Source: Candidatus Omnitrophota bacterium (GTDB lineage Bacteria; Omnitrophota; Gorgyraeia; Duberdicusellales; 4484-171). Taken from it: DNA of 37,564 nucleotides. The DNA lies in the NCBI GenBank assembly GCA_028703535.1, contig JAQVMQ010000008.1, positions 1-37,564 of the forward strand, in the 5' to 3' direction. The translations under genes and the position numbers were made by a program. This document shows positions 24,481 to 26,432 of this stretch, piece by piece. The first letter of the stretch is position 1. Every line of letters starts with the position of its first letter. The notes beneath the pieces were generated by a model. That model had not been told where the DNA came from. It did not search any database and was given only the letters and a program-made list of their open reading frames with translations.

Positions 24481-24532
24481 CATTTTAAAACAAGGGCTCT
24501 AAAAGTCAACAAACAATTAAGCTTTTAAAATG
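24481..24532. repeat. 10-bp inverted repeat at the ptsN promoter
   Basis: CATTTTAAAA (24481-24490) and TTTTAAAATG (24523-24532) are exact reverse complements flanking the promoter. The left arm overlaps the -10 and the first ATG. It could be an operator, or chance in AT-rich DNA. Confidence 0.35.
24482..24509 (-). promoter_or_regulatory. Promoter of the pts operon
   Basis: TTGACT (24504-24509) and TAAAAT (24482-24487) are 16 bases apart on the minus strand. The predicted start, near 24475, coincides with the ATG that best fits the EIIA protein, so the mRNA would be leaderless or nearly so. It probably drives the run ptsN to plsY, which has no larger gap than 77 bases. Confidence 0.5.
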
Positions 24533-24578
24533 TAAAATATTATTTATTGATGAACATCAACCAAAGATGAAATAATAA

Positions 24579-24650
24579 GCGGGGAAAGGGGATCGAACCC
24601 TCGACCTTCACGTTGGCAACGTGACGCTCTACCAGTTGAGCTACCCCCGC
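24579..24650 (-). tRNA. tRNA-Gly (anticodon GCC)
   Basis: The 72-base gene folds as a cloverleaf: acceptor GCGGGGG pairing with the 3' strand TCCCCGC, a D-arm with AGCTCAACTGGTAGAG, an anticodon loop TTGCCAA, and a T-arm GTTCGATCC. The 3' CCA is not encoded. It lies downstream of tRNA-Leu on the same strand. Confidence 0.97.
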
Positions 24651-24746
24651 ATAAATGAAGACTGGAGACTAACCACTACAGTTTCTTAAATCCACTATTT
24701 TACAGAGCATCATACTAACCACATTTATCTCCACTTCTAAAACGAA

Positions 24747-24776
24747 TGTATAAGTGTGTTTTTTTGAAATAAGCAA
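24747..24776 (-). promoter_or_regulatory. Possible tRNA-Gly promoter
   Basis: TTGCTT (24771-24776) and TATACA (24747-24752) are 18 bases apart, about 95 bases upstream of the tRNA. The rest of the spacer between the two tRNA genes shows nothing else I can name. Confidence 0.3.
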
Positions 24777-24846
24777 AAATATCTTAGCATATTTATGCAT
24801 ATTTTCAATTAAATTTGAAAAATGAAAATAACTTAAATAAAACAAT

Positions 24847-24927
24847 GCCGCGGGGGAGAGTCGAACTCCCACCTCCGAAGAGACATGATCCTAAGTCATG
24901 CGCGTCTGCCAATTCCGCCACCACGGC
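24847..24927 (-). tRNA. tRNA-Leu (anticodon TAG)
   Basis: The 81-base class II tRNA has acceptor GCCGTGG, D-arm GGCGGAATTGGCAGACGC, anticodon loop CTTAGGA and a long variable arm before the T-arm GAGTTCGACTC. CCA is not encoded. Confidence 0.96.
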
Positions 24928-24948
24928 TATTTAGTCGCCAGTTATTAG

Positions 24949-24978
24949 TTTATAGTCGTTAGTAAGAATTTGGTTCAA
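24949..24978 (-). promoter_or_regulatory. Promoter of tRNA-Leu
   Basis: TTGAAC (24973-24978) and TATAAA (24949-24954) are 18 bases apart; the predicted start is about 15 bases before the tRNA. Part of this promoter region (24941-24964) matches, inverted, the edge of the tandem repeat near tRNA-Lys at 20 of 24 bases. Confidence 0.5.
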
Positions 24979-25238
24979 AAGGTAAAATCCCTAGTTCTTA
25001 CAACCTCTATCTAACTTTAATTAACTAAACATAATATATTTAAAAACCCAAATTATCACAAAGAACAATTCAGTCGAGAACCTTTATAATCCACTAAAAA
25101 AACAAAAGACCTCTACCCTATCTAATGAATAAATTCAATTCATTAGACTATAAACATAATTTATTATAAAAACAACCATTGTTAAAACTACGACTATTTA
25201 TATCTTCAAAGAACTACTTTAAATCAAATTACACTATA
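24979..25238. other. Gene-free AT-rich spacer
   Basis: I see no gene, stable hairpin or repeat here beyond simple AT-rich sequence. It lies between the tRNA-Leu promoter and the tandem repeat array. Confidence 0.4.
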
Positions 25239-25278
25239 AACTAACTACTATTAACTATGAACTAATAACTAATAATAT

Positions 25279-25534
25279 GAGCCGCCCAGAGAATGCAAAC
25301 TCATCGCTTACGCTCTTCATAAAAGAGAACCTACGGTTCTCCTCTCTGACGCTCGTTATTCCTTCGGATTAACTCGCTGTCACTCCTCTCCCTTCACTGA
25401 AGAGAATTTGTTTTGAGGAAAAATCCTTTTCCCTCAAACTCCCTTTGCGAGTTCGTCCTCGTGCTTATATATCAAATATCTTTAAATCAATATCAACTAG
25501 CTACTATTAACTATGAACTAATAACTAATAATAT
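25279..25534. repeat. 256-bp tandem repeat, unit 1
   Basis: This unit is identical, by eye, to unit 2. It begins (plus strand) with the 9-base tRNA-Lys end. On the minus strand it can form hairpins at 25412-25438 (12 bp, 3-base loop) and at 25325-25341 (7 bp, GAGAACC/GGTTCTC), the latter followed by TTTT. The open reading frames crossing it are chance frames. Confidence 0.9.
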
Positions 25535-25790
25535 GAGCCGCCCAGAGAATGCAAACTCATCGCTTACGCTCTTCATAAAAGAGAACCTACGGTTCTCCTC
25601 TCTGACGCTCGTTATTCCTTCGGATTAACTCGCTGTCACTCCTCTCCCTTCACTGAAGAGAATTTGTTTTGAGGAAAAATCCTTTTCCCTCAAACTCCCT
25701 TTGCGAGTTCGTCCTCGTGCTTATATATCAAATATCTTTAAATCAATATCAACTAGCTACTATTAACTATGAACTAATAACTAATAATAT
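25535..25790. repeat. 256-bp tandem repeat, unit 2
   Basis: This is the second copy, directly abutting the 3' end of tRNA-Lys. The same hairpins fall at 25668-25694 and 25581-25597. If tRNA-Lys transcription reads through, these structures would lie in its 3' trailer. Confidence 0.9.
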
Positions 25791-25862
25791 GAGCCGCCCG
25801 AGGATCGAACTCGGAACACCCGCCTTAAAAGGGCGGTGCTCTACCAATTGAGCTAGCGGCTC
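25791..25862 (-). tRNA. tRNA-Lys (anticodon TTT)
   Basis: The 72-base gene has acceptor GAGCCGC pairing with GCGGCTC, D-arm TAGCTCAATTGGTAGAGC, anticodon loop CTTTTAA and T-arm GAGTTCGATCC. CCA is not encoded. It lies nine bases after frr and may be co-transcribed with it. Its last nine bases recur in the two repeat units downstream. Confidence 0.97.
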
Positions 25863-25871
25863 GATAATATA

Positions 25872-26432
25872 CTAAAAGTCTTTTAGATCTTTCTCTTTTT
25901 CTTCAAGAAGCTTATCTATCTCGGCACAATACTTATCTGTAAGTTTCTGGACCTTATCATCAGCTTGGAATCTATCATCCTCCGAAATAACCTTGTCTTT
26001 TTCTAATTTTTTTATCTCATCTTTAGCATCACGCCTTATGGTACGTATTGAAACTTTATTCTCTTCAGCAACTTTTTTGACTATTTTGACCAGCTCCTCT
26101 CTGCGTTCCTGAGACAACGCAGGCACTACTAATCTGATGATCTTACCGTCGGTCATAGGCGTAATACCCAGTTCTGATTGTAAAATAGCTTTCTCTATCT
26201 CTTTAACCGCCGAAGGATCGTAAGGATTAATAACAATAAGTTTAGCTTCCGGAACACCGATAGTCGCTATCTCCCTCAATAATGTAGGAGTACCATAATA
26301 ATTCACTCTTATCCCTTCAACCATTTTAGGGTTAGCTCTACCTGAACGCAGCTCAGAAAATTCACGCTTAGTAGAGGCCAATGTTTTATCCATTTTCTCT
26401 TCTATTTTTGATAAAAGTTCTTTAGCACTCAT
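25872..26432 (-). CDS. frr: Ribosome recycling factor
   Basis: RRF splits post-termination ribosomes together with EF-G. The 186-residue protein has the full two-domain pattern: FSELRSGRANPKMVEGIRVNYYGTPTLL, then VINPYDPSAVKEIEKAILQS and the long C-terminal helix region with VRTIRRDAKDEIKK-type sequence. It ends the cluster rpsB-tsf-pyrH-frr, a gene order conserved in many bacteria, and lies 11 bases after pyrH. tRNA-Lys follows directly. Confidence 0.97.
   Translation of the reverse strand: MSAKELLSKIEEKMDKTLASTKREFSELRSGRANPKMVEGIRVNYYGTPTLLREIATIGVPEAKLIVINPYDPSAVKEIEKAILQSELGITPMTDGKIIRLVVPALSQERREELVKIVKKVAEENKVSIRTIRRDAKDEIKKLEKDKVISEDDRFQADDKVQKLTDKYCAEIDKLLEEKEKDLKDF

Follow-up and report, generated by a model that had tools for sequence, protein, structure and literature searches.

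Organization of the tRNA-Lys Locus

Why is a tRNA-Lys gene followed by two further copies of its own 3′ end? The window analyzed here, 37,564 bp in length, is one entire contig of a MAG of a Candidatus Omnitrophota bacterium (1.41 Mb, 90 contigs). Tandem Repeats Finder delimits a repeat at 25235-25799, with a period of 256, 2.2 copies, and a 99% match. From the sequence alone, an earlier note had described three 49-bp direct repeats spaced 256 bases apart, each carrying the last nine bases of tRNA-Lys. The period is correct, but the outermost 49-bp copy has one base unlike the other two, and the 56-bp copies are 95% identical. Direct repeats of the tRNA 3′ end are indeed found at each unit boundary, but the exact match is 10 nt long (GGGCGGCTCA, discriminator included) and, with a diverged T-arm 3′ part, the tRNA-Lys-derived end reaches 26 nt (TGAGTTTGCATTCTCTGGGCGGCTCA, against CGAGTTCGATCCTCGGGCGGCTCA in the tRNA). 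The two units are identical, as the note had stated: those in repeat phase, 25288-25543 and 25544-25799, do not differ, and a 265-bp query matches both at 100%. They also hold no gene, at least by the measure of an ORF of at least 80 aa in the 256-bp unit. The parts of the locus are as follows.

25790..25862 (−): tRNA-Lys(ttt), by ARAGORN; Rfam tRNA model, 67.3 bits
25790-25813 (−): T1, the T-arm 3′ part and acceptor 3′ strand of tRNA-Lys
25534..25789 (−): tRNA-proximal unit, 256 bp, consisting of trailer, alpha, core, and T2; from repeats and sequence identity
25717..25789 (−): AT-rich trailer of the proximal unit; from sequence and repeats
25703..25716 (−): proximal alpha, GAGGACGAACTCGC, close to the tRNA-Lys T-arm in reverse complement; from sequence and the class-wide alpha test (p = 5e-12)
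25567..25701 (−): proximal structured core; model R1, 129 bits, E = 1.4e-27, for a sequence that belongs to the R1 training set
25534..25559 (−): proximal T2, diverged copy of the T-arm 3′ part and acceptor 3′ end of tRNA-Lys; from sequence and the class-wide T2 test (p = 7e-17)
25278..25533 (−): distal unit, same sequence as the proximal unit; 265-bp match at 100%
25447..25460 (−): distal alpha, same as the proximal alpha
25311..25445 (−): distal structured core; model R1
25278..25303 (−): distal T2; from sequence
25232..25277 (−): third trailer copy, partial; three mismatches across the 56-bp repeat

The tRNA-proximal ~46 bp of the trailer is seen again behind every T2 at this locus. By inspection, GAGGA of alpha pairs with TTCTC of T2 (one G-U), and ACTC with GAGT. 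AT-rich short repeats of the TTAGTTA type are found at 24940-24964 and 25232-25280 of the window and in contigs C19, C40, and C63 of the same genome, both in trailers and in other intergenic DNA.

A Family of Repeats at tRNA 3′ Ends

In other genera of the window's family, tRNA-Lys is followed by the same ~200-bp insert and then by a second tRNA 3′ end; the duplicated trailer there differs from that of the window. Elsewhere, most Blast matches to the insert alone follow a different tRNA (Thr, Phe, Asn, Gln, Met, Pro), and all relatives with an exact match to one 33-base stretch of the core belong to Candidatus Omnitrophota. A covariance model, R1, was built from just the ~130-nt core, with tRNA, alpha, and T2 left out. 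R1 matched 42 of 147 genomes of the class, with first-look filters that miss weak matches, and in the phylum sample one genome outside the class; some matches sit at contig ends. The positional count was limited to 55 distinct matches of at least 36 bits. Thirty of them follow a tRNA encoded on the same strand, 5 are upstream, 3 are convergent, and 17 have no tRNA within 260 bp in the DNA examined. By our estimate, assuming ~45 tRNAs per 1.6 Mb, about 0.2 same-strand downstream positions are expected by chance, against the 30 seen. Weaker matches, below ~36 bits, are left out of this positional claim; some of them form a subgroup, maybe false or inverted, located at terminators that face tRNAs.

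The repeated tRNA end can also be counted independently of the core. Among 187 distinct tRNA genes in the loci examined, a set enriched for such loci and so no measure of prevalence, 56 have a copy of their own 3′ end (at least 12 nt) within 600 bp downstream. The corresponding controls gave 2 (upstream 600 bp) and 4 (the tail of another tRNA), and chance is therefore excluded. Later matches outside the discovery set comprise five loci from the phylum sample and one further copy in genome G066 found by DNA similarity. Those downstream of tRNAs are at Leu (L182, the one outside the class), Met (L185), Leu (L187), and Leu (L170), and alpha is readable in three of these four; at L185 it is 21 nt long with a GA-GAACC motif, and the entire trailer is repeated. 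L183 and L184 are not downstream of a tRNA.

The family thus occurs at 20 or so tRNA types or isoacceptors in Omnitrophota, at many tRNAs and in many genomes, which bears out the minimal mobilizable cassettes suggested in the earlier note. Its occurrence is patchy: most tRNAs, and most of the sampled genomes, are without the element. The same note held that units at random non-tRNA sites would count against its reading. This applies only in part: some matches have no tRNA in the DNA examined, and no fewer than two (L091, L117) sit at an apparent 5S rRNA 3′ end, whereas other copies are tRNA-linked. Rfam places a 5S gene in L091; both cores have CCTACTCTCCC on their left, and L117 also has GGAGAGTAGGTCGG on its right. 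A core-like sequence at L010 (1217-1410) lies upstream of tRNA-Gly, between the copies of a 32-bp direct repeat; the first 7 nt of the tRNA form part of this repeat. Phage carriage was set aside after viral contigs gave no match to an exact 30-base pattern, a narrow test. Literature searches on tyrT repeats, rtT RNA, and tRNA-associated repeats returned no account of the Omnitrophota family. It is large, made up of structured elements, and apparently undescribed. The reading that we favor, with some reservation, is that the unit is a non-coding, structured, non-autonomous mobile element of tRNA 3′ ends, doubled in the window by unequal exchange.

Structure of the Core

In an alignment of 12 sequences not fitted to the model (A1), 96% of cells are paired and double changes occur in 8 of 34 pairs, against 2.8 in shuffles; none of 500 shuffles reaches 8. 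With 53 distinct sequences fitted to R1 (A2), 94% are paired and double changes reach 27 of 34 pairs (17.7 when shuffled). Helix 2, a long-range helix around the last two hairpins, has many G-U pairs (66, versus 5 A-C) and therefore points to RNA, read in the direction of the tRNA, although A2 is fitted to the model and favors G-U over A-C by construction, which makes this strand argument supportive only. The same wobble pairs of helix 2 are present in the unfitted A1. The strong covariation and the G-U-rich long-range helix indicate that the core probably acts as RNA.

A folded RNA may serve the host rather than itself. It could be a beneficial trailer RNA with a part in processing or termination, or a small RNA, roles that have been proposed for E. 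coli rtT; selection would keep it at tRNA 3′ ends, and gene conversion would make its copies alike in each genome, without its being mobile. The covariation and the G-U content of helix 2, the location mostly on the tRNA-sense strand, and the RNA gene rttR annotated for the similar repeats at E. coli tyrT would all suit such a trailer. However, one would hardly expect a host RNA to be so patchy, to have a core type unlinked to the identity of its tRNA, or to stand at different tRNAs with alpha and T2 matched to each, and we consider this explanation unlikely, if worth keeping in mind. In the mobile element that we prefer, the folded core would be selected as RNA for its own spread, for a host role as tRNA trailer, or for both.

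Ends Matched to the Local tRNA

The left end of the element, alpha, is an inverted copy of the T-arm of the local tRNA. The right end, T2, is a direct copy of its 3′ end, and usually stops exactly at the last base of the tRNA, including CCA where this is encoded. Class-wide, alpha fits its own tRNA with 25.3 versus 18.1 for other tRNAs (p = 5e-12), and T2 with 35.6 versus 14.5 (p = 7e-17); these p-values are indicative only, as the elements are related and kinship inflates significance. Family-wide, the alpha:T2 duplex is stronger than that with T2 of other elements (p = 5e-8). Alpha complements the functional tRNA better than T2 in 29 of 33 elements, partly as the tRNA segment extends further. 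Opposite a T-loop with TTCGA, alpha has GAGAA in 13 of 30 cases, giving two G·A mismatches. Opposite TTCAA, GAGAA never occurs, and alpha has TTGAA, the exact complement, in 7 of 11. The starts of alpha and T2 on the tRNA correlate, but moderately (rho 0.50, p = 0.008), because T2 is often interrupted. The direct repeats vary from about 18 to 60 bp (~18-22 bp in G066, ~55 bp in G025), and the target duplications are short in places, for example TCCCATCACCCGCTCCATATAA at the G066 tRNA-Gly. Pairs between alpha and the tRNA are without G-U excess (18 G-U, 23 A-C), and alpha therefore looks like a copy made at the DNA level.

How such ends are made can be imagined in other ways. The element might be RNA-mediated, like a bacterial SINE or an RNA-guided insert. 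It would enter tRNA 3′ ends by pairing or priming at the T-arm, and with every insertion it would duplicate the target and copy part of it in inverted orientation; the repeats at E. coli tyrT (RtT) might belong to the same anciently widespread class. To this we give a rather small probability. A smaller one still goes to the view that ordinary intergenic DNA was simply repeated, through slippage or unequal duplication or as an assembly loop, with alpha and T2 derived from template switching between inverted repeats. The identity of the two window units would suit this view, as would the lack of G-U excess in alpha:tRNA and the better fit of alpha to the tRNA than to T2, which correction against the nearest inverted repeat would give. 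Against it, the core is a conserved, covarying family across the class, related units are seen at other tRNAs, and GAGAA opposite TTCGA is kept in those 13 of 30 cases as well as in E. coli RtT, although blind correction should remove such mismatches. The slippage duplication named in the earlier note, or unequal exchange, explains how one unit became two, but not the origin of the unit itself.

Similarity of Cores Within Genomes

The median core identity is 0.80 (up to 0.98) within the same genome at different tRNAs, 0.65 at the same tRNA in different genomes, and 0.63 where neither is shared. For example, cores at Thr and Gly tRNAs are 98% identical in G066, and those at Thr, Gly, and Met are 90-96% identical in G046; both genomes, like G109, carry many recent copies. 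The core tree has many weakly supported branches, and elements of the same genome are not independent observations. Core type has no link to tRNA identity. Since cores are alike within genomes and not by tRNA, they have spread or been homogenized within genomes. Judged from these sequences, transposition with target copying would be the simplest reading, while gene conversion without transposition could be an alternative source of the similarity. Since near-identical cores at different tRNAs each have the 3′ end of their own tRNA, the target, rather than an attP brought along by the element, is the source of the duplicated end.

This last observation speaks against the att-site reading of the earlier note, and against minimal cassettes moved by a tyrosine recombinase that crosses over inside the tRNA 3′ end. 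Such a reading is very unlikely and was rejected as the main one: it would give direct repeats of the tRNA 3′ end and tandem accretion, such as the G010 tRNA-Phe array with its two cassette types, but near-identical cores are flanked on both sides by their own tRNA's end, so that each tRNA regains its own 3′ end; the inverted alpha is unexplained, and no integrase lies inside the unit.

For the mobile element, which would depend on an enzyme supplied in trans, no clean polymorphic pair of empty and filled sites was found within one species, G066 being without a congener among the genomes compared. Same-genus pairs in the window's family have spacers without the element, too diverged for a clean junction, and in G003 the Lys and Leu tRNA genes are 2 nt apart with the element absent. 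No mobilizing enzyme was identified when Y1 (RAYT-type) transposases were looked for in the 147 class genomes. Y1_Tnp is present in 119 of them without visible enrichment among R1-positive genomes (presence compared), and is absent from the R1-positive G091, G101, and G136.

Comparison with Known Systems

The closest parallel is offered by the 178-bp repeats of E. coli tyrT/tyrV (Rfam RtT, RF00391; rttR RNA). These are also tandem units directly behind a tRNA, and the final 19 nt of that tRNA are repeated at the end of each, just as the Omnitrophota units end in their tRNA 3′ end. Both have an inverted T-arm/acceptor segment at the left end, paired in the RtT model with the 3′-end copy, and share GA-GAACC in alpha; before T2, the copy in the E. 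coli tyrT-tyrV spacer has TGAGGAGCGAAGCGACGA, like TATGAGGAGCGAAGCGACGAG in Omnitrophota. However, the cores have no detectable sequence relation (R1 reaches at best 3.4 bits on E. coli), the big domain lies on the opposite side of the T-loop copy, and the E. coli units are at tRNA-Tyr only in the comparison made here. The RtT model, whose curated cut-off is 45 bits, gave no match up to E = 1 in the window at 24500-26000 and none in 39 relatives, while the E. coli positive control matches. As R1 has no match to E. coli either, membership in RtT was rejected; judged by these models, the element appears to work like RtT without being a member of it.

Integrative elements and satellites with tRNA 3′ ends as attB share the duplicated tRNA 3′ end and tandem accretion with the Omnitrophota units. 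The latter differ in having no integrase (no ORF of 80 aa within the unit), a size of about 200 bp, target-derived ends at each tRNA, and the inverted alpha. A tyrosine integrase should leave the same carried tRNA 3′ end at each site, but T2 agrees with the local tRNA, whereas it is within genomes that cores agree.

REP/RAYT elements and MITEs are small, non-coding, hairpin-rich, and multi-copy in a genome, and so are the Omnitrophota elements. The window's own genome has five matches to RAYT-type transposases; a RAYT link was rejected, as the presence of the element is not associated with RAYT genes. The Omnitrophota elements differ from both groups in the variable length of their target duplications, inverted ends that match the local tRNA, linkage to tRNAs, and the long-range RNA helix. 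Neither the fixed TIR nor the fixed-length target duplication of a MITE or DNA transposon is found; alpha differs by tRNA, and the direct repeats vary. Casposons and Cas1-type integration use tRNA 3′ ends, duplicate targets of some 14-27 bp, and give arrays of repeat-insert-repeat. The Omnitrophota unit lacks a TIR-bearing, gene-rich body, and the likeness is an analogy only.

Tandem Doubling and Other Arrays

The outermost trailer copy differs by three bases over the 56-bp repeat, while the other two are identical, and it is therefore older than the unit duplication. A single insertion thus came first and its doubling later, and the two identical units of the window are most simply explained by recent unequal exchange between direct repeats.

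The same genome, sampled via 30 tRNA loci, has arrays at tRNA-Arg(tct), tRNA-Glu(ttc), tRNA-Phe, tRNA-Pro(ggg), and tRNA-Ser(tga), with cores unlike that of the window. Three units of 148 bp follow tRNA-Glu(ttc) on contig C76 (L155), and three of 125 bp follow tRNA-Arg(tct) on C63 (L007); each unit is closed by the 3′ end of its own tRNA, with few SNPs between copies. Since the copies of these Arg and Glu arrays differ by SNPs, arrays of this kind are not simply assembly loops. The 185-bp insert at tRNA-Ser(tga) on C64 (L163) starts with GGGGGTAGGGTGAGAAG, near the left end of E. coli RtT, GGAAGGGTGAGAACC.

One spacing recurs in several genomes. At L010, L018, L020, L021, L023, L033, L041, and L007, a tRNA 3′-end copy (Gly, Leu, Phe, Arg) lies 124-126 bp downstream, with widely different intervening sequence. 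The G010 tRNA-Phe array has 3′-end copies at 125, 375, and 500 bp and two different cassette types. A second insert type, GGGGAACAAC ... GTTGTTRCCC, occurs at tRNA-Gly and tRNA-Phe 3′ ends (L010 1466-1720, L041, L021, L023). Here too the tRNA 3′ copy forms the closing end, and a mismatch recurs beside it.

A Model and Its Meaning

In the model that we favor, the element would lodge at the 3′ end of a tRNA gene and would probably be transcribed with the tRNA. The target's own 3′ end, that is T2 with 0 to about 50 nt of trailer, would be duplicated on the far side, which would leave the tRNA whole, and an inverted copy of the T-arm would be placed at the left end as alpha. In the window, one insertion behind tRNA-Lys, probably old, would recently have been doubled between direct repeats, giving the two identical 256-bp units.

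With units that begin anew at the tRNA 3′ end, the repeats of E. coli tyrT have stood alone as a curiosity since the 1970s. This layout has so far been known mainly from that one tRNA locus, and the Omnitrophota family is a phylum-wide instance of it. Its RNA fold covaries and its layout follows a simple rule (inverted T-arm, core, direct 3′ end), so that comparison can now test where such repeats come from and what they do. The family also hints at a class of small elements, distinct from integrase-borne islands, that resides at tRNA 3′ ends.
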